A DNA stretch of 64,000 nucleotides from an uncultured Bacteroidales bacterium (lineage in GTDB: Bacteria > Bacteroidota > Bacteroidia > Bacteroidales > UBA932). Below the pieces are notes generated by a model. It was not told the origin of the DNA and searched no databases. It worked only from the letters and a program-made list of their open reading frames with translations. Both the position numbers and the translations under genes were made by a program. Each line of letters starts with the position of its first letter. Positions within the stretch are counted from its first letter, which is position 1. The stretch spans positions 21,359 to 85,358 of the forward strand of contig ONJB01000003.1 in the NCBI GenBank assembly GCA_900318015.1, given 5' to 3'. Shown one piece after another: positions 141 through 61,363 of the stretch.

Positions 141-701
141 ATGCAGGACTACTTCGTTCACGAAAGCAGTTATGTCGACGATGGCGTGACCATCGGCGCG
201 GGAACGAAGATTTGGCATTTCTGCCATATTCAACAAGGAGCCGTCATCGGGCGCAACTGTTCGTTGGGACAGAATGTCAATGTCGCGAACAACGTCCGGA
301 TCGGAGACGGCGTCCGTATCCAGAACAACGTATCCATCTACGAAGGCGTAGAGCTGGAGGATCACGTATTCTGCGGCCCGTCGTGCGTATTCACGAATGT
401 GAGTACCCCGAGGGCGCATTTTCCGGTGCATGGCGCGTACGTGCGTACGCGCGTACGCGAGGGAGCTTCCCTGGGCGCCAATTGCACTATCGTTTGCGGC
501 CATACTGTAGGCCGCGCGGCGATGATCGCCGCCGGTGCCGTGGTGACACGGGATGTGAAAGATTATGCTTTGATGGCCGGGGTACCGGCCAGGCAGATAG
601 GGTGGGTGTGCGAATGCGGCCGTCGTCTGGACGGATCTTACGCGTGCGCGTGCGGGAGAAAGTACCGGCTGGTCGGGGAAAACCTCGAGAAAGCCGAGTG
701 A
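141..701 (+). CDS. wbpD: WbpD-like UDP-3-amino-glucuronate N-acetyltransferase
   Basis: This 186-residue left-handed beta-helix acyltransferase has hexapeptide repeats from about residue 14 to 155 ([43 protein letters not shown]). The segment [19 protein letters not shown] is typical of WbpD proteins. The tail carries two Cys-x-Cys pairs (WVCECG and YACACG) that could bind zinc. Family members acetylate the 3-amino group of UDP-GlcNAc3NA using acetyl-CoA in the cytoplasm. The ATG at 141 is preferred because the frame upstream opens only with a TTG at 105 and the family starts near this Met. The next gene is the matching WbpE-like aminotransferase, which supports the assignment. Confidence 0.85.
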
Positions 702-702
702 T

Positions 703-741
703 GTCATTCTGAGGAGGCCGTGAGGCCGACGAAAGAATCTC
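703..741. repeat. short palindromic repeat with GTCATTCT and AGAATCTC ends
   Basis: The sequence begins GTCATTCT at 703 and ends AGAATCTC at 741, so its outer ends (ATTCT/AGAAT) pair. Inside is a second small hairpin, GGCC-GTGA-GGCC, at 716-727. It starts two bases after the stop of the wbpD-like gene and lies just upstream of the wbpE-like gene. Its GTCAT and AATCTC ends match those of the in-gene elements at 1307 and 1832, so it may be a single-hairpin relative. No function is evident. Confidence 0.55.
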
Positions 742-790
742 ACAATCAACGAGTTGCTTGCTTTTTAATAGGGCGAGCATTGGCGAAGCC

Positions 791-2029
791 ATGGAATTTA
801 GAGATCTCAAGAAGCAGTATCAGGTCCTCCGCGAGGAAATGGACCGGGCCGTCCTGGACGCGATGGCGTCCGGCGCCTATATCATGGGCCCGCAAGTTCG
901 GGCGTTAGAACAGCAGTTGGCGGAATACGTCGGGGTCAAGCATTGTCTGACCTGTGCGAACGGGACGGATGCCCTCACCCTGGCTCTCAAGGCTTGGGGC
1001 ATCGGACCCGGTGATGCCGTGTTCGTCCCGGACTTCACATTCTTCTCTTCGGCCGAGGTCGTGCCGCTTGAAGGCGCTGAGCCGGTTTTCGTAGATGTTT
1101 GCGAGGAGACGTTCACCATCGATGCCGCTGATTTGGAGCGTGCGGTGGAGGATGTCCTTTCGGAAGGAAGGCTGCGTCCCCGTGTGGTCGTCGCCGTGGA
1201 CCTGTTTGGCCTCCCGGCCGATTACCAGGCGATCCGGTCGGTGGCCGACCGTTATGGACTCCTGGTCCTGGAAGACGGGGCGCAGGGTTTCGGCGGAACT
1301 ATTCAGATGGCCGATCAGGTCGGCCATGACGGGAACGTCATTCCCGGCTTGACCGGGAATCTCAGAGCCTGCAGTTTCGGCGATATCGCGACGACATCCT
1401 TCTTCCCTGCCAAGCCTTTGGGCTGCTACGGAGACGGTGGCGCCGTGTTCACGGACAATGACGAATGGGCGGCGCTGATCGCGTCGTACCGGGTGCACGG
1501 GAAAGGGACGTTCAAGTACGACAACGTCCGTATTGGCCTGAACTCCCGGCTGGATACGGTCCAGGCGGCGGTCCTGCAGGTGAAGCTCAAAGCATTCGCA
1601 GAATACGAGCTGGACGCGGTGAACGAGGTTGCTGCCCGCTACACGGAACTCCTGCAAGGGCTGGCGACGCCGGTTATTCCGGCGGGTTACCGATCCAGTT
1701 GGGCGCAGTATACCGTCCGTTTCGCTTCTCGCGAGCAGCGCGATGCCGTCCAGGCCGCCCTCAAGGCCGATGGTATCCCGGCGATGGTCTATTACCCGAA
1801 GCCGCTGCACCGGCAGGCGGCGTTTGACAAGACCCCCGATCAGGTCGGGGGTGACGGAAAGAACGTCATTCAGGGTAACGGGAAGAACGTCATTCCCGGC
1901 TTGACCGGGAATCTCTGCCCCGTGGCAACGTCGTTGTGCGAGCGTGTGCTGTCGTTGCCTTTGCATCCGTATATGGGTCTCGAAGAAATCGAGACGGTGT
2001 GTAACGCAATTCGAAAAGCCCTTCGATGA
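791..2029 (+). CDS. wbpE: WbpE-like PLP aminotransferase with two in-frame repeat insertions
   Basis: This 412-residue DegT/DnrJ/EryC1/StrS aminotransferase is expected to place the 3-amino group on UDP-3-keto-GlcNAcA, using glutamate and PLP. It starts MEFRDLKKQYQ and has the substrate motif CANGTDAL. The PLP lysine is K208 in SFFPAKPLGCYGDGG. Compared with WbpE, two foreign segments are present: residues 173-191 (MADQVGHDGNVIPGLTGNL) and residues 348-375. Both derive from a palindromic DNA element, and native sequence resumes directly after each. ATG 791 is chosen over the in-frame TTG at 758, which lies beside the intergenic repeat. The stop overlaps the ATG of the next gene. Whether the enzyme is active with both inserts is unknown. 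Confidence 0.88.
   Translation: MEFRDLKKQYQVLREEMDRAVLDAMASGAYIMGPQVRALEQQLAEYVGVKHCLTCANGTDALTLALKAWGIGPGDAVFVPDFTFFSSAEVVPLEGAEPVFVDVCEETFTIDAADLERAVEDVLSEGRLRPRVVVAVDLFGLPADYQAIRSVADRYGLLVLEDGAQGFGGTIQMADQVGHDGNVIPGLTGNLRACSFGDIATTSFFPAKPLGCYGDGGAVFTDNDEWAALIASYRVHGKGTFKYDNVRIGLNSRLDTVQAAVLQVKLKAFAEYELDAVNEVAARYTELLQGLATPVIPAGYRSSWAQYTVRFASREQRDAVQAALKADGIPAMVYYPKPLHRQAAFDKTPDQVGGDGKNVIQGNGKNVIPGLTGNLCPVATSLCERVLSLPLHPYMGLEEIETVCNAIRKALR
1307..1363 (+). repeat. two-hairpin palindromic element, copy 1, in frame inside wbpE-like gene
   Basis: Hairpin 1 is ATGGCCGA (1307-1314), loop TCAGG, TCGGCCAT (1320-1327). A 12-base spacer GACGGGAACGTC follows. Hairpin 2 is ATTCCCGG (1340-1347), loop CTTGA, CCGGGAAT (1353-1360), then CTC. 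Read as units, each hairpin is GTCAT-stem-CYTGA-stem-AT. The two lie in inverted orientation, the layout of a REP doublet. The element is 57 bases, exactly 19 codons, and adds 19 residues between GGTIQ and RACSFGD of the aminotransferase. Confidence 0.85.
1832..1915 (+). repeat. two-hairpin palindromic element, copy 2, with internal 24-bp duplication
   Basis: Hairpin 1 is ACCCCCGA (1832-1839), loop TCAGG, TCGGGGGT (1845-1852). Its stem differs from copy 1 at three positions on each arm, and every change is matched by its partner. Hairpin 2, ATTCCCGG/CCGGGAAT (1892-1912), and the closing CTC are identical to copy 1. The spacer is longer because of an imperfect 24-base tandem duplication that encodes GDGKNVIQ and then GNGKNVIP. 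The whole element is 84 bases, or 28 codons, in the same reading frame as copy 1, 468 bases downstream in the same gene. Confidence 0.85.
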
Positions 2030-3207
2030 TCCTTTTCTGGCGCAAGAAACCCTGGGTCGATCTCCAGCATGAGGAGGAGTTCATTCCGAAGAACTACTCC
2101 GAGCGCGGGGTTGATACCGGCGCCAAGCTGGAGGATCAGTTGGTCGGGAACGTCGACCTGGAAAGGATCTTCTATGCCACGGAGTCCATGGACCTGAGGG
2201 CCAGCATGGCGTGGCTGGAGAAGCATCAGGAGGAGTTTGACGAGACAACGTTCATCGTCAATACGGATGACGGAAATGCCCTGGATGCACTCAAGGGGCA
2301 TCATCCTAGGCTGATTATCAACAAGATGGGCCTGACCCGCATCCGGCACTTGAACACCTTCCTGAACAAGGCGAACGAGGCGTTGGTGGATGGTGGCTAC
2401 CTGTTGTGCCACTCTCGGACTTCCAGCCTCAAGCGGGCGATTTTTATCAAGCGGCATCCTGGGCTTATCGGCAAGGTCCTCTATGCCTTCCATTACCTGT
2501 GGCACCGGATTATCGCCCGGCTGAAGTTGACCCGCTGGTTCTATATGTGGGTGACCAAGGGCAAGAACCGCAGTTATCCGCGCGTGGAGCTCCTGGGGCG
2601 CATGTACCGGGCCGGATTCGAGGTCGTGGACGAGCGCTTCCACCAGGGCGAGTTCTTCATCCTGGGCCAGAAGTTCCGCAAGCCCATCTGGGACGACGAT
2701 CCTACCTTCGGCGCCCTCGTCAAACTGAACCGCGTGGGATACAAGGGAAACATGATCGGCGTATACAAGTTCCGGACGATGTTTCCGTATTCCGAGTACC
2801 TGCAGCCGTATATCCTCGAGCACGAGGGCCTGCAGAAGGGCGGGAAGTTCGCGCATGATTATCGCGTGAATTTCTGGGGGCGGAAGCTCCGCTCCAGCTG
2901 GCTGGACGAACTGCCCATGTTCATCAACGTCCTGAAGGGGCAGATGAAACTCGTGGGCGTGCGGCCGCTCAGCCGGTCGTATTTCAAGCTCTATACGCCG
3001 GAGATGCAGGCGCTGCACATTAGCGTCAAGCCGGGACTCCTCCCGCCGTTCTATTACGACAAGAAGACCCCCGAGACCCTGGAGGAGATCCAGGAATCGG
3101 AAAAGAGATATATCGAAGCCTATCACCAGCACCCCTTCGCCACCGACTGGCGGTATTTCTGGGGGACGATCGGCAACATTTTGTTCAAGCATAAAAGATC
3201 ACATTAG
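2026..3207 (+). CDS. sugar-phosphate transferase (WcaJ/PglC-type domain) with an extra N-terminal domain
   Basis: The C-terminal part of this 393-residue protein matches bacterial sugar transferases that move a sugar phosphate from a nucleotide sugar to undecaprenyl phosphate and so start a repeat unit. KFRTM is followed by LDELPMFINVLKGQMKLVGVRPLS, with the catalytic Asp-Glu pair at about D294-E295. Residues 1 to about 225 are a separate soluble-looking domain that vaguely resembles a SAM-dependent methyltransferase. The membrane re-entrant helix that normally precedes the catalytic domain is not visible; only an amphipathic stretch (LWHRIIARLKLTRWFYMWV) is present. It is probably the initiating transferase, being the only one in the window. 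It overlaps the wbpE-like stop (ATGA). Confidence 0.75.
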   Translation: MILFWRKKPWVDLQHEEEFIPKNYSERGVDTGAKLEDQLVGNVDLERIFYATESMDLRASMAWLEKHQEEFDETTFIVNTDDGNALDALKGHHPRLIINKMGLTRIRHLNTFLNKANEALVDGGYLLCHSRTSSLKRAIFIKRHPGLIGKVLYAFHYLWHRIIARLKLTRWFYMWVTKGKNRSYPRVELLGRMYRAGFEVVDERFHQGEFFILGQKFRKPIWDDDPTFGALVKLNRVGYKGNMIGVYKFRTMFPYSEYLQPYILEHEGLQKGGKFAHDYRVNFWGRKLRSSWLDELPMFINVLKGQMKLVGVRPLSRSYFKLYTPEMQALHISVKPGLLPPFYYDKKTPETLEEIQESEKRYIEAYHQHPFATDWRYFWGTIGNILFKHKRSH

Positions 3208-46910: not shown

Positions 46911-48115
46911 TCAACGTTATCGGCCTGGGCTATATCGGCCTTCCTACGGCGCTGATGCTGGCTTCCCACGGACAGGAAGTCGTCGGGACGGATTACAATC
47001 CGGAACTGGTCGCCACGCTGAATGCGGGCAAGACGACCTTCAAGGAGGAGGGGCTGGACGACCTGTTCGCCGCCGCCGTGAAGGGCGGGATCCGGTTTAC
47101 GACGGAATACCAGCAGACGGACATGTACATCGTTTCCGTCCCTACTCCGTATGACAAGTTTTCCAAGAAGGTGGATCCCTGCTATGTGGTCGCTGCGGTG
47201 AAGCAGGTGTTGTCCGTGTGCCCGGACGGGGCTACGGTTGTGGTCGAGTCCACGATCTCTCCCGGCACCATCGACAAGTCCGTGCGGCCCGTGATCGCCG
47301 AGAGCGGCAAGCAGATCAATCTGGTCCATGCCCCCGAGCGCATCATCCCGGGCAACATGGTCTACGAGCTCCTGCACAACAACCGCACGATCGGCGCCGA
47401 CGACAAGTCGGTGGGGGAGAAGGTCAAGGCCTGCTACGCCAGTTTCTGCCAGGGCGAAATCGTCGTCACGGACATCCGGACGGCCGAAATGACCAAGGTC
47501 GTGGAAAACACTTTCCGGGCCGTGAACATCGCCTTTGCCAATGAGCTCGCCCGCATCTGCCGGCACGACAACATGGACGTGTACGAGATCATCCGCATCT
47601 GCAACATGCACCCGCGGGTGAATATCCTTCAGCCCGGCCCCGGCGTGGGCGGTCACTGCATTAGCGTGGACCCGTGGTTCCTGGTGGGGGACTATCCCAG
47701 CCTTGCCAAGGTCATCGACGAGTCCATGAAGACGAACGACGGTCAGCCCGCCTTCGTGCTGAACCGGATCCACGAGATCATGAAGGAGAACGGCATCACG
47801 GACACCCGCCGCGTGGGCCTGTACGGCCTCACCTACAAGGAGAATGTCGATGACGTCCGTGAAAGCCCGACGCTGCAGCTGCTTGAGTGCCAGGAGCGTC
47901 ATCTCGCCGAGCCGCTGAAGGTCTATGACCCGCTGATTGAAAAGGACCTCGTGAAGAACCAGTATCACGATTTCGACGCTTTCCTCGCTGACGTGGACAT
48001 GGTCGTCATCATGGTCAAGCACGACCAGGTCAAGGGCAGCTGGGACAAATTGAAAGGCAAGGTCATCCTGGATTGTCATAACATCTGCCTGCTGGAAGGC
48101 GTCTATCACATCTGA
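46907..48115 (+). CDS. wecC: UDP-N-acetyl-hexosamine 6-dehydrogenase (WecC/WbpA-like)
   Basis: This 402-residue protein starts MINVIGLGYIGLPTALMLASHG (Rossmann NAD site). It has VSVPTPYDK, VVESTISPGT, VHAPERIIPGNM, TAEMTKVVENTFRAVNIAFANEL and the catalytic cysteine in GVGGHCISVDPWFLV. VDPWF is more like WecC (UDP-ManNAc dehydrogenase) than WbpA or TviB, and the adjacent gene encodes WecB. The pair would make UDP-ManNAcA, or UDP-GlcNAcA if the enzyme oxidises UDP-GlcNAc. The latter product would feed the WbpB/WbpE/WbpD-like enzymes also encoded here. ATG 46907 overlaps the previous stop. Confidence 0.9.
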   Translation: MINVIGLGYIGLPTALMLASHGQEVVGTDYNPELVATLNAGKTTFKEEGLDDLFAAAVKGGIRFTTEYQQTDMYIVSVPTPYDKFSKKVDPCYVVAAVKQVLSVCPDGATVVVESTISPGTIDKSVRPVIAESGKQINLVHAPERIIPGNMVYELLHNNRTIGADDKSVGEKVKACYASFCQGEIVVTDIRTAEMTKVVENTFRAVNIAFANELARICRHDNMDVYEIIRICNMHPRVNILQPGPGVGGHCISVDPWFLVGDYPSLAKVIDESMKTNDGQPAFVLNRIHEIMKENGITDTRRVGLYGLTYKENVDDVRESPTLQLLECQERHLAEPLKVYDPLIEKDLVKNQYHDFDAFLADVDMVVIMVKHDQVKGSWDKLKGKVILDCHNICLLEGVYHI

Positions 48116-49275
48116 TGAAGAGAATCATGCTCGTGTTCGGAACCCGCCCGGAGGCCATCAAGATGTGCCCTCTGGTGAAGGAGTTCCAGAAATATCCGGA
48201 GGAGTTCGAGACGCTTGTCTGCGTGACGGGCCAGCATCGAGAGATGCTGGACCAGGTGCTGCAGATCTTCGGCGTGAAGCCGGATTTCGACCTGAACATC
48301 ATGAAACAGGGGCAGGACCTGTACGACGTGACGTCGCGGGTTCTTGTAGGGATGCGGGATGTGCTGGATGAGGCCAGGCCCGACGTGGTCCTGGTTCATG
48401 GCGACACGACCACCTCGATGGCGGCGGCGATGGCGGCTTTCTACCGCCAGATTCCCGTCGGCCATGTGGAGGCGGGCCTGCGGACGCACAACATCTACAG
48501 CCCCTGGCCGGAGGAGATGAACCGGCAGATCACCGGACGGATTGCAACCTATGACTTTGCGCCGACGCCATTGAGCCGCCAGAATCTCCTGGATGAAGGC
48601 GTTGATCCTGAGAAGATTACAGTGACAGGGAATACTGTAATCGATGCGCTCCACTGGGTCGTGGAGAATGTGATGGAAAAGGGCTATGTGCCGAAGGATT
48701 CGGCGGTCGCGGCGCTCCCTCGGGGAGACCGTCGGTTGGTATTGATTACCGGCCATCGGCGGGAAAACTTCGGAGAAGGTTTCATCAGCATGTGCACCGC
48801 CATCCGGGATTTGGCACTCAAGTATCCGGATGTGGATTTCGTGTATCCGATGCACTTGAACCCGAATGTACGGAAACCCATCCGCGAGGTGTTCGGGGAG
48901 ATGGCCGATCAGGTCGGCCATGACGGGCGCGTCATTCCCGGCTTGACCGGGAATCTCTTCTTCATCGAGCCGCTGGATTACCTGGATTTCGTGTATCTGA
49001 TGTCCCGGAGCTATTTGGTTCTTACCGATTCCGGCGGCATTCAGGAGGAGGCGCCAGGACTCGGGAAACCGGTTCTTGTGATGAGGGATACGACCGAACG
49101 GCCGGAAGCGCTGGAGGCCGGGACCGTGCGTCTGGTAGGTACCGATCACGGCCGGATCATGGCGGAGGTGTCTGCCCTCATGGACGATCCTGGGCATTAT
49201 CAGGCGATGAGCCAGGCTGTGAACCCCTACGGGGACGGCAAAGCTTGCCCCCGGATTGTGGTGAAATTCAAATAA
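48115..49275 (+). CDS. wecB: UDP-GlcNAc 2-epimerase with in-frame repeat insertion
   Basis: This 386-residue non-hydrolysing epimerase has FGTRPEAIKMCPLVKEF, GQHREMLDQVLQIFGV, VHGDTTTSMAAAMAAFY, HVEAGLRTHN, PEEMNRQITGRIATYDFAPT, ITGHRRENFGEG and DSGGIQEEAPGLGKPVLVMRDTTERPEAL, a complete set of family motifs. Residues 263-281 (MADQVGHDGRVIPGLTGNL) come from the same palindromic DNA element as in the wbpE-like gene. They sit between VFGE and FFIEPLDYLDF, where homologues have a short loop. The enzyme could act as WecB or as WbpI on the diacetamido-uronic acid. It is the last gene before the export genes. Confidence 0.92.
   Translation: MKRIMLVFGTRPEAIKMCPLVKEFQKYPEEFETLVCVTGQHREMLDQVLQIFGVKPDFDLNIMKQGQDLYDVTSRVLVGMRDVLDEARPDVVLVHGDTTTSMAAAMAAFYRQIPVGHVEAGLRTHNIYSPWPEEMNRQITGRIATYDFAPTPLSRQNLLDEGVDPEKITVTGNTVIDALHWVVENVMEKGYVPKDSAVAALPRGDRRLVLITGHRRENFGEGFISMCTAIRDLALKYPDVDFVYPMHLNPNVRKPIREVFGEMADQVGHDGRVIPGLTGNLFFIEPLDYLDFVYLMSRSYLVLTDSGGIQEEAPGLGKPVLVMRDTTERPEALEAGTVRLVGTDHGRIMAEVSALMDDPGHYQAMSQAVNPYGDGKACPRIVVKFK
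48901..48957 (+). repeat. two-hairpin palindromic element, copy 3, in frame inside wecB
   Basis: ATGGCCGA (48901-48908), loop TCAGG, TCGGCCAT (48914-48921), spacer GACGGGCGCGTC, then ATTCCCGG (48934-48941), loop CTTGA, CCGGGAAT (48947-48954) and CTC. It differs from copy 1 only at two adjacent spacer bases (AA to CG), although the copies lie 47.6 kb apart in unrelated genes. It occupies the same reading frame as copies 1 and 2 and adds 19 codons. Confidence 0.88.
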
Positions 49276-50140: not shown

Positions 50141-52633
50141 ATGGCCATCAGACAGGATAACAACGATCTCTCCTTCCTCGAGAAAAAGGATGCGAATTCC
50201 CTTTCCGGGAAGGACATTTTCTATACAATCCTCCGGAACCTGCACTGGCTCGTTCTCTGCGCGGCCGTATGCGCCGGGGTTGCCTACTATCGGAGCGACC
50301 GGGCGGACCGCATTTATGAGAGCCACGCCAAGATTCGCCTGAATTCCGTTACCAGGAACCGTTTGGAGAGCGGGTCAACGACCCTCGAGAACATCACCGA
50401 CAGACGTGTCGCCATCACGATGAACGCCATCAACGACGAGATTATCGTGCTTAAGTCGGAAACGCCTATGCTGGAGGTAGCCAAGCGGCTTAATTTGGGC
50501 ACGTCTTATTTCTACCAGACCAAACTTGTCAAGCGGGTACGGGACCTGTACCGGGAGTCTCCGATCAATGTCCAGATGCTGGACATCAGTGAAACGGATT
50601 ATGCGACGGCCATCGTCACCGTGAGCAAAGATTCGACATTCGTCATCGAGATCGGTGATTTCGAGCCCGTGCCAGGGCATTTGGGAGATACGGTATCGAC
50701 CAGCCTCGGGCGGATCAGTGTCATGCCTACCTGGGCCCTCCGCGAGCTTTTCTATGACAACCCGATTACGGTGCGTCACAGCAATATCAACAGTGTGGCC
50801 GAATCTTACCGTAACCGGGTGGACGTCAGCCGCAACAGCACCTCTGACGGTATTATCAACCTCTCCCTCCACGACACTTCTCCTCAACGTGCGGCGGACA
50901 TCCTTAACGAAATGATTTCCGTCTATAACGAGAATACCATCGAGGAAAAGAAGGAAATCATCCGGCAGACATCCGAGTACATCAACTCCCGTATCTCCCA
51001 GCTGGACCGCGACTTGGGGGCTCAAGAATCCCAAATTGCCAGCTTTAAGCGCGAGAACCAGATTCTGAACCTGAACGATTACGGGCAGTCCTACTTGAGC
51101 CAGAGCATCGAGACTCAGGAGGAAATCAACCGCATAAACGCCCAGATATCCCATGCTCAGTACCTGCAGCAACTGACAGCCTCCAATACGGAGAACAAAT
51201 TGTTCCCGGTGACGGTTGACATCAAGGACGACCATATCAACAGTACGATCCGCCGGTTCAACGAACTCGTTCTTAAACTGGATAAATACAAGGAGACAGG
51301 TACGACCAACAACCCGGTCGTTCAAGATATGAATACCGAGCTGGCTTCGCTCAAGGCGAACCTCAATCAGCTGCTGACATCCTATATTGGAGCGATGCAG
51401 CAGCAGATCGGCGGTGTCCAGGCCCTCAGCCAGATGGCGGCCGACAAGGTCCGTCAGGTCCCGGGCGGGCAGTTGTATATCGACAACATCGCCCGTGTCC
51501 AGGGTATCAAGGAGCAGCTTTACATCACGCTTCTGAGCCGTCGCGAGGAGATGCTCATCAGCCAGCCTTCCCTGACCGGCAATGCCAAGGTCATCGACAA
51601 GGCCCGTGTCAATAACAACCCAATTTCCCCGAACACACGGCGGAGCGTCCTGATGGGCCTGCTGATCGGTCTCCTCATTCCGGTCGCCATCTTCCTCCTG
51701 CGCCGAATGCTGGACACCAAGGTCCGGGTCCGCAAGGATGTCGAGGCCTATACCGATATTCCCATTCTGGGCGAAATTCCTGCCAAGGACAAGAAGGATA
51801 CCCGCGAACTGGTCGTGACCGACCAGGGACGAGATACCATGACGGAAGCCTTCCGTATCCTGCGAAGCAACATCGAGTTTACACGAGTGCCCGGCCAGAA
51901 GGCTACTTCCTACCTGTTCCTCTCCCTGATGGAAGGATCCGGTAAGACGTTCCTCACCACCAACCTGGCTGCCAGCCTCGCGCAGGTGGAAAAGAAGGTC
52001 ATCCTGCTGGACCTCGACCTCCGCAAGGGTACGCTTACGCACAATATCGCCAGCCGGAAGCTTCCGGGCTTCTCCACATACCTTTCCGCGAAGACCGACG
52101 ATTTCGAAAGCATCATCAGCCATGATGTCGTAGCTCCGGGTGTGGACACCATCCTGTCCGGTTCCCTGCCGCCGAACCCGGCTGAACTCCTGTCCAGCAA
52201 GCGGCTGGATACCATCATGGATTACCTGAGGGAACGTTATGACTTCATCCTGATTGACGCCGTTCCGGCAGGTATCGTGGCCGATGCCACCATCCTCAGC
52301 CGTTTCGCCGACGTGAGTGTGTTCATCCTCCGCTCCAACCTGGTGGACAAGCGCATGCTGCCTGACCTGCAGGAGCTCAAGGACCAGAAGCGGTTCCCGA
52401 ACATGATGATCATCATGAATGACATCCAGTTCAAGAAGCATCGCGGCTACGGCGGATATGGCTATGGCTATGGCTATGGTTACGGCTATGGTTACGGCTA
52501 TGGTTATGGCTACGGCTACGGCTATGGTTATGGCTACGGAAATGGTGACGGGAAGTCTGATGGCAAGAAACACCATCACCACCATCATCACAAGAAGGAA
52601 GAATCTTCCTCCGATACCAAAGAAGAGGCATAA
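50141..52633 (+). CDS. wzc: Wzc-like chain-length regulator/tyrosine kinase with Gly-Tyr-repeat tail
   Basis: This 830-residue inner-membrane protein has a first membrane helix at about residues 33-50, a long periplasmic Wzz/GNVR domain with coiled-coil regions, and a second helix at about 502-523. The BY-kinase domain has Walker A EGSGKT (598-603), A' ILLDLDLRKG (from 621) and Walker B FILIDAVPAG (D706). The tail has 15 tyrosines in a near-perfect Gly-Tyr repeat (residues 770-799), then seven consecutive histidines and an acidic end. Tyrosine-rich tails of such kinases are autophosphorylated to control polymer length. It forms a pair with wza 14 bases upstream. Confidence 0.95.
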   Translation: MAIRQDNNDLSFLEKKDANSLSGKDIFYTILRNLHWLVLCAAVCAGVAYYRSDRADRIYESHAKIRLNSVTRNRLESGSTTLENITDRRVAITMNAINDEIIVLKSETPMLEVAKRLNLGTSYFYQTKLVKRVRDLYRESPINVQMLDISETDYATAIVTVSKDSTFVIEIGDFEPVPGHLGDTVSTSLGRISVMPTWALRELFYDNPITVRHSNINSVAESYRNRVDVSRNSTSDGIINLSLHDTSPQRAADILNEMISVYNENTIEEKKEIIRQTSEYINSRISQLDRDLGAQESQIASFKRENQILNLNDYGQSYLSQSIETQEEINRINAQISHAQYLQQLTASNTENKLFPVTVDIKDDHINSTIRRFNELVLKLDKYKETGTTNNPVVQDMNTELASLKANLNQLLTSYIGAMQQQIGGVQALSQMAADKVRQVPGGQLYIDNIARVQGIKEQLYITLLSRREEMLISQPSLTGNAKVIDKARVNNNPISPNTRRSVLMGLLIGLLIPVAIFLLRRMLDTKVRVRKDVEAYTDIPILGEIPAKDKKDTRELVVTDQGRDTMTEAFRILRSNIEFTRVPGQKATSYLFLSLMEGSGKTFLTTNLAASLAQVEKKVILLDLDLRKGTLTHNIASRKLPGFSTYLSAKTDDFESIISHDVVAPGVDTILSGSLPPNPAELLSSKRLDTIMDYLRERYDFILIDAVPAGIVADATILSRFADVSVFILRSNLVDKRMLPDLQELKDQKRFPNMMIIMNDIQFKKHRGYGGYGYGYGYGYGYGYGYGYGYGYGYGYGYGNGDGKSDGKKHHHHHHHKKEESSSDTKEEA
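52460..52537 (+). repeat. hexanucleotide tandem repeat encoding 13 Gly-Tyr units
   Basis: Thirteen consecutive six-base units of the form GGY-TAY (GGC or GGT, then TAT or TAC) encode residues 774-799 of the Wzc-like kinase. The units vary at third positions, so the tract is not a pure microsatellite. Gain or loss of a unit would change the number of tyrosines by one without a frameshift. Confidence 0.85.
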
Positions 52634-61320: not shown

Positions 61321-61323
61321 CTT

Positions 61324-61350
61324 GTCATTTCGAGCGAAGTCGAGAAATCT
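61324..61350. repeat. short palindromic repeat between glpK and glpF
   Basis: The sequence begins GTCATTTCGA (61324-61333) and ends TCGAGAAATCT (61340-61350) around a GCGAAG centre. ATTTC/GAAAT and GA/TC pair, with two unpaired bases. It fills most of the 43-base gap between glpK and glpF. The GTCATT...AATCT ends resemble those of the repeat at 703-741 and of the in-gene elements, although the stem sequence is different. Confidence 0.55.
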
Positions 61351-61363
61351 AAACTCATACACT

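Follow-up and report, generated by a model that had tools for sequence, protein, structure and literature searches.

CGTC-tagged REP hairpin dimers lie between genes and, in frame, within genes of a Bacteroidales-type genome

In the 64-kb window (the whole stretch of DNA that was analysed, 64,000 nucleotides), three pairs of short inverted hairpins interrupt two genes with the reading frame left open, and hairpins of the same family recur throughout the genome. Taken as a whole, it is very probable that the element pairs two CGTC-tagged REP hairpins, each with an 8-bp stem and a 5- or 6-nt loop, head-to-head in a non-autonomous dimer, which in this Bacteroidales-type lineage sits both between genes and, with the frame kept, inside them. 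Inside genes it would be read as a turn-rich peptide (VIPGLTGN, EIPGQAGND, DQVGHDG or RHSRLDRES). Such translation is possible since the main unit, as read from the sequence, has no stop in four of its six frames (giving RHSRLDRES, VIPGLTGN, IPGQAGND and RFPVKPGMT) and since the peptides fit loops and linkers. The inserted peptides are probably tolerated rather than useful, and the units may multiply by slippage and template switching at the hairpins. The genes and hairpins of the window are listed here, with scores from our covariance model R1.

794..2029, plus strand: WbpE-type DegT/DnrJ/EryC1/StrS aminotransferase gene with two in-frame REP insertions (Pfam PF01041, E 3.4e-92)
1305..1331, minus strand: site 1 in WbpE, left hairpin of the CGTC dimer (R1 45.4 bits, E 1.6e-9)
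1332..1335, no strand: site 1, 4-nt spacer GGAA between the two tags
1336..1362, plus strand: site 1 in WbpE, right hairpin of the CGTC dimer (R1 48.4 bits, E 2.7e-10)
1830..1856, minus strand: site 2 in the same WbpE gene, left hairpin (R1 39.1 bits)
1857..1887, no strand: site 2, 31-nt spacer
1888..1914, plus strand: site 2 in the same WbpE gene, right hairpin (R1 48.4 bits)
48115..49275, plus strand: wecB-type UDP-GlcNAc 2-epimerase gene with one in-frame insertion (ORF; Pfam PF02350, E 2.5e-118, for the same gene in locus L089)
48899..48925, minus strand: wecB dimer, left hairpin (R1 45.4 bits)
48930..48956, plus strand: wecB dimer, right hairpin (R1 48.4 bits)

These six units are the only R1 matches in the window (E up to 0.1, filters off), and both unit types of site 1 belonged to the training set of the model. 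The best PDB matches of the aminotransferase are 4qgr and WbpE (3nyu, 3nu7). Site 1 comprises two 27-nt hairpins placed head-to-head in the layout AGAT-stem-loop-stem-ATGACG, GGAA, CGTCAT-stem-loop-stem-ATCT, with the tag of the left hairpin appearing as GACG on the plus strand (1328-1331). Folded as RNA, the 59-nt site reaches -31.8 kcal/mol (z -5.41), and as DNA within a 91-nt stretch it gives z -3.42, with 0 of 200 shuffles as good in either case; the RNA folding z of the three window dimers runs from -4.41 to -5.41. The spacer of site 2 contains an apparent partial extra copy (GTCATTCAGGGTAACG), and GGTIQMADQVGHDGNVIPGLTGNLR is an example of the sequence around an insert junction. An Rfam search of window positions 600-2200 gave a single match, of 24.3 bits against a gathering score of 70, and none above threshold.

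A first-pass annotation of this DNA had described a single palindromic two-hairpin element, inserted in frame in the aminotransferase. The element is real, but the covariance model places it at 1305-1362 rather than 1307-1363, and a second in-frame copy in WbpE (1830-1914) and one in wecB (48899-48956) had been missed. The 12-base spacer that it gave is indeed 12 bases long, GACG-GGAA-CGTC, and can be refined to two inverted CGTC tags around 4 bases. The insert was said to add exactly 19 codons; against the empty allele of L118, however, the net gain is 51 nt or 17 codons (90 versus 39 nt), because it replaces a three-residue, DGK-like turn. The description as a REP doublet stands, being repeated genome-wide and in frame in WbpE, whereas the term REPIN in its RAYT-linked sense is not supported, as the type is CGTC, a class reported to lack a dedicated transposase, and neither Y1_Tnp gene found in this genome has a CGTC hairpin within about 1.5 kb.

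A genome-wide search bore out the repeat nature of the element, the right-hand hairpin giving 56 matches with up to 3 mismatches and its reversed control 0. The covariance model R1, built from 18 chosen unit variants, finds at least 107 CGTC hairpins (E up to 0.01) in the 3.2-Mb genome. With units at most 120 nt apart placed in one cluster these fall at 73 sites, namely 32 head-to-head dimers, 2 tail-to-tail dimers and 39 single units. The tag, unpaired and at one end, is CGTC in 17 of the 18 unit types chosen for the model and TGTC in the other. The stem has 8 bp with A-U as the first pair in 50 of 52 distinct units, and the loop has 5 nt in the 27-nt units and 6 nt in a minority of 28-nt units. 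Beyond the stem, the unit as provisionally delimited closes with CT. All 32 head-to-head spacers, of 4 to 47 nt, differ from one another. In an alignment fitted to the structure with R1 (52 distinct units from 108 matches in the retrieved loci), pairing is kept in 98.6% of stem cells, both-sided changes occur in 5 of the 8 pairs, and cells with both-sided changes number 63 against a shuffle mean of 20.3.

A codon score trained on 47 long ORFs of the window places 42 of the 73 elements in an open frame, with sequence that looks coding to either side; e36 (in WbpE), with a short right flank, was added to the 42 by hand. They occupy 38 distinct ORFs, and 31 of these ORFs, holding 35 elements, match Pfam (E up to 0.001; e7 and e18 below the gathering score only). 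The best Pfam stretch spans the insert in 17 of the 35. The remaining seven elements (e17, e39, e43, e50, e51, e54 and e60) lie in ORFs without a Pfam match and are excluded from the Pfam-supported counts; e39, e51 and e54 have an open frame in a sister. Host genes, named from Pfam and partly by eye, encode a MurE-type ligase, MurB, DapF, shikimate kinase, TruA, two UvrA-type ATPases, FtsK, superoxide dismutase, a FabA-like dehydratase, a SufE fusion, a P-type ATPase, an M20 peptidase and a DNA-alkylation repair protein; an NtrC-type regulator, a Glycos_transf_4 protein and an epimerase hold two elements each. Two distinct UvrA-type genes of the genome (L080, L093) each carry an in-frame CGTC dimer, and in-gene REPs in uvrA are known from other phyla too, according to passages of PMC3733652.

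The first-pass annotation had assumed that such doublets normally lie between genes, which is not so for the CGTC family here, with about half of its sites genic. Genes are hit less often than chance placement gives, 1136 of 1500 random spans from the same loci classing as coding against 42 of the 73 elements. Survival only of in-frame, stop-free insertions, which we estimate at about 2 in 9, would predict some 41% genic sites, and genes seem not to be avoided beyond this filter. Dimers make up 22 of the 35 elements in Pfam-supported genes but only 8 of the 31 outside ORFs (p 0.003), and unit intactness is alike in the two classes (means of 44.7 and 45.1 bits respectively, p 0.26). The 13 single units in Pfam-supported genes are read as IPGQAGND-type peptides in 8 cases, VIPGLTGN in 3 and RHSRLDRES in 2. 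Rich in Gly, Pro, Asn and Asp, the first-named of these peptides would suit turns; the placement of inserts in loops is taken from alignments and Pfam boundaries.

We then asked how these sites differ between species, and this frame test provides the main evidence for translation. When the sequences flanking the 73 elements were compared with loci of the sisters G087 and G172, 46 sites were located in at least one of them. Each species is represented by a single genome, in most cases incomplete and probably a metagenome bin, and the frame data are between-species. Loci of the sisters were retrieved solely from the surroundings of hairpins listed for these genomes (66 of 85 in G087, 77 of 100 in G172); hence the 46 include too large a share of shared sites and too small a share of empty ones. 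Pfam-supported sites allowed 32 comparisons, with a length difference in 24, and 22 of these are multiples of three. Of 20 comparisons outside ORFs, 11 showed a length difference, which was a multiple of three in only 2 (Fisher p 3.7e-5 for Pfam-supported genic against non-ORF sites, for comparisons that share ancestry and are not independent). For ORFs without a Pfam match all 8 comparisons differ in length, 7 of them by multiples of three. The genic length changes seen are 24, 33, 39, 48, 51 and 69 nt.

The DNA-level exceptions, e5 and e44, are both open in frame at the protein level and are hence taken as misplaced DNA gaps. One uninterrupted sister frame crosses the site in 36 of 40 protein-level comparisons, the failures being e17, e18 and e50 in G087 and e60 in G172. 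Of these, e60 resembles a promoter region; the strand used in scoring e17 runs opposite to the e18 ORF; and for e18 a single open frame is matched on either side, although the two flanks overlap. Collectively these comparisons of sequence indicate that the inserts are translated and that selection has kept the frame through repeated changes.

WbpE alleles with and without the insert exist, as the alignment of orthologues shows. From 199 relatives found, 80 orthologue loci were drawn; 39 were used in a protein-identity comparison and 25 for site 1, where they form 26 rows together with G022, which looks the same as L124. Site 1 is empty in 20 of the 26 rows, with a three-residue turn in its place, and is occupied by REP-like single hairpins in three (L120, L121 and L123) and by unrelated short inserts in three. 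L117, whose protein is 94% identical, is empty at site 1 and has the dimer at site 2. Something REP-like is present at site 2 in all ten nearest loci (L117-L126), of differing kinds: CGTC dimers in L117 and L118, as in the window; second-family hairpins of the TGTCATTYCGRGC...GARAAATCT or GAGGAATCT types in L119, L120, L121, L123 and L125; and shortened or decayed forms, REP-like by eye, in L122, L124 (the same as G022) and L126.

Other genes offer similar series. The G022 orthologue of wecB (82%) has a second-family hairpin at the place of the CGTC dimer in the window. MurE holds a dimer in G000, just one of these two hairpins in G087 (98%), a hairpin with one arm copied in tandem in G172 (95%), and a decayed half in G092 (89%). 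The M20 peptidase and a UDP-sugar dehydrogenase likewise show empty or single alleles beside double ones. Searches of the closest sisters, G087, G172 and G092, gave no close WbpE or WecB orthologue.

The changes are of three kinds. One hairpin may be gained or lost (MurE; the SufE fusion, e59), or half-hairpin units of 21-24 nt are gained or lost, often in tandem (e5, e14, e20, e22, e25 and MurE in G172); both would fit slippage at hairpins in replication. In the third, different REP families occupy the same place within a few codons (e4, e5, e44, e58, wecB, WbpE sites 1 and 2, L342_0 and L296_1). Six such sites are genic, namely WbpE 1, WbpE 2, wecB, truA (e44), OEP (e4) and the NtrC-type gene (e5), and at the intergenic site e58, G172 is empty, G000 has the CGTC dimer and G087 has another family. 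Whole insertions are missing in a sister at e61 (69 nt) and L317_2 (79 nt). Exchange between families could be either repeated insertion at one permissive spot or replacement in place, and template switching might be helped by the ends that the families share, AGAT/ATCT and ATGAC/GTCAT.

For replacement in place, we tentatively propose that in-gene REP sites are lasting landing pads, where a resident REP would be rewritten by other families through template switching or gene conversion over these shared ends, with selection keeping the frame; the proposal has rather less than an even chance of being right. If true, the hairpins in genes of this lineage would amount to translated cassettes that can be exchanged. 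Repeated insertion is of comparable standing, a possible account that we do not quite favour: independent transposition into a few permissive loops, by some transposase yet to be named, would fill each site, and species would thus differ in REP family. It is consistent with WbpE site 1, where most rows are empty and yet other hairpins appear in L120, L121 and L123, with the three states of e58, and with the whole insertions absent from a sister at e61 and L317_2. It sits less well with the re-use of the same short stretch in WbpE (two sites), wecB, truA, OEP and the NtrC-type gene, sometimes with the dimer oriented alike, a pattern hardly expected of free insertion, and with the lack of a common target motif. 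The tag itself was considered as the target, as hinted by CGTC or GACG at empty junctions (L334_0; the WbpE left hairpin against L118). It was rejected as a general rule: of the 73 units removed in silico (63 comparisons), 6 had an intact tag tetramer in the other allele, 5 a tag with one mismatch, 28 a gapped tag and 34 a tag changed in some other way.

Two further explanations concern why the hairpins are there at all. They might be kept for a role at the RNA or DNA level (translation pausing, mRNA stability or protein binding), with the peptide as a by-product, as the strong RNA folding of the three window dimers and the stem covariation would allow. Their patchy presence, in 23 of 37 genomes of the genus sample with 0 to 103 copies, the unrelated nature of the host genes and the absence of the hairpins at site 1 from most of the WbpE orthologues compared make this unlikely. 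That the insert is merely a protein loop specific to the lineage, or an artefact of assembly, is highly improbable. Loop length does vary in this enzyme family, and at site 1 three orthologues hold short inserts of an unrelated kind; however, the same DNA stands at 73 sites and at matching sites in separately assembled sister genomes, and this repetition at the DNA level already refutes both. The insert is thus neither common to all orthologues, as the empty rows show, nor free of likeness to other loci. Translated CGTC-tagged REP dimers, non-autonomous and kept in frame, remain our preferred reading.

Under stricter filters (E up to 1e-5), CGTC units occur in those 23 genomes of the genus sample at 1 to 103 each, and in 2 of 24 genomes from other families of the order. 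The sisters differ widely, with 85 units in G087, 100 in G172, one in G092 and eight in G189. The first-pass annotation had pointed to a RAYT/TnpA_REP gene as something to look for. The genome (92.5% complete) has two Y1_Tnp genes, neither with a CGTC hairpin within about 1.5 kb, and we found no RAYT flanked by CGTC units. The Y1-type gene of L032 (768-1937) has its own 37-nt palindromic inverted repeats (TGCTCGTACAGGTCCATG...), unlike CGTC units in sequence, and that of L031 has, by eye, other border repeats. An R1 scan of 32 Y1 loci marked one with CGTC-type units, L403 of genome G027; a cruder scan marked 2 of 33, the second being L406 with a poor hairpin. In L403 a Y1-like gene is flanked by inverted CGTC-type hairpins (1151-1178 and 2488-2515) outside its own 76-nt inverted repeats. 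This is suggestive, a lead rather than a link to a Y1 transposase.

Across the 37 genomes, Y1_Tnp matches and CGTC units occur together in 20, CGTC units alone in 3, Y1_Tnp alone in 7 and neither in 7 (p 0.023), and their counts give rho 0.25 (p 0.14). In G058, a 99% complete genome from another family, 25 hairpins occur and Y1_Tnp finds no match, and G005 has 6 Y1_Tnp matches and no hairpin. A link was not accepted; the weak association, which covers the Y1_Tnp family only, could come from incomplete genomes.

The closest known system is the class of CGTC-tagged REPs described by Di Nocera, De Gregorio and Rocco in 2013 (families CGTC-1 to 4; PMC3733652), and the tag, stem and loop, and head-to-head predominance seen here all fit that class (family 2-like). 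Passages of that paper report a CGTC tag, an 8-bp stem with AT as the first pair and a mostly 5-nt loop, together with head-to-head dimers, heterodimers, units in ORFs and two insertions in one gene, all as found here; uvrA and tRNA pseudouridine synthase genes are targets in common. The same passages give the class no dedicated transposase. Their tail is mostly CCA, and the unit here, as provisionally delimited, ends in CT; head-to-head spacers, as a rule of thumb conserved there, all differ here; about half of the sites here are genic, whereas theirs are mostly intergenic; and 6-nt loops are also present here.

The paper, in the same passages, equates RPE-6 and RPE-4 with CGTC-1 and CGTC-4 and records the class inside genes of several species besides Rickettsia, so that the tie of in-gene translation to Rickettsia drawn by the first-pass annotation is right for that genus and too narrow. 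The further remark of that annotation, that it knew of no described Bacteroidota equivalent, holds in part. CGTC repeats are reported in Bacteroidetes in PMC3733652, whose relevant passages name no in-gene Bacteroidetes case, and a search of the open-licence literature found no paper on in-gene REPs in Bacteroidales. RepRanger (2025) lists Bacteroidota genomes, with no mention of in-gene units in the passages concerned (PMC12306157).

The Rickettsia cases are summed up in a 2024 review, where the parts bearing on them describe RPE-1, RPE-4 and RPE-6 as palindromic repeats translated in frame in unrelated genes, as here (PMC10969869). Those elements are about 150 bp long, and are likened to ours by description, not sequence; the host here, in contrast, belongs to a Bacteroidales-type lineage whose genomes measure about 2-3 Mb. 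REPINs and RAYT-linked GTAG REPs share the doublet of two inverted REPs, but the tag here is CGTC, and this genome showed no RAYT flanked by CGTC units. The enterobacterial RU elements (Delihas 2007, PMC2759123) are likewise small mobile repeats fused in frame to genes, but, as described in part of that paper, are MITE-like units of 103-168 bp.

The CGTC REP class in genes and CGTC repeats in Bacteroidetes are thus already known from passages of PMC3733652, and the phylum is not wholly new. What is new is that about half of the sites are genic in a Bacteroidales-type genome, that the 32 spacers are unique, and that six genic sites hold another REP family in a relative. Translated palindromes would extend from Rickettsia and scattered cases to a Bacteroidales-type genus of more than 200 genomes, which offers empty, single, double, expanded, decayed and exchanged alleles that can be compared gene by gene. 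Two questions become testable, namely how CGTC repeats, for which no transposase is known, multiply and how often selfish repeats give housekeeping proteins new loops. For annotators, VIPGLTGN- or EIPGQAGND-like peptides in such proteins are to be taken as repeat-derived.

The window also contains palindromes of other kinds. A different REP-like palindrome (GTCATTCTGAGGAGGCCGTGAGGCCGACGAAAGAATCTC) lies at 701-743, between hexapeptide acetyltransferase-type and aminotransferase genes. A hairpin of a second REP family (TTGTCATTTCGAGCGAAGTCGAGAAATCT) lies at 61323-61352, between ORFs that by eye resemble glycerol kinase and aquaporin; a pattern related to it has 22 matches in the genome and 0 in the reversed control. 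At 52442-52620 an ORF that by eye is chain-length/tyrosine-kinase-like ends C-terminally in a long Gly-Tyr repeat followed by a His run.
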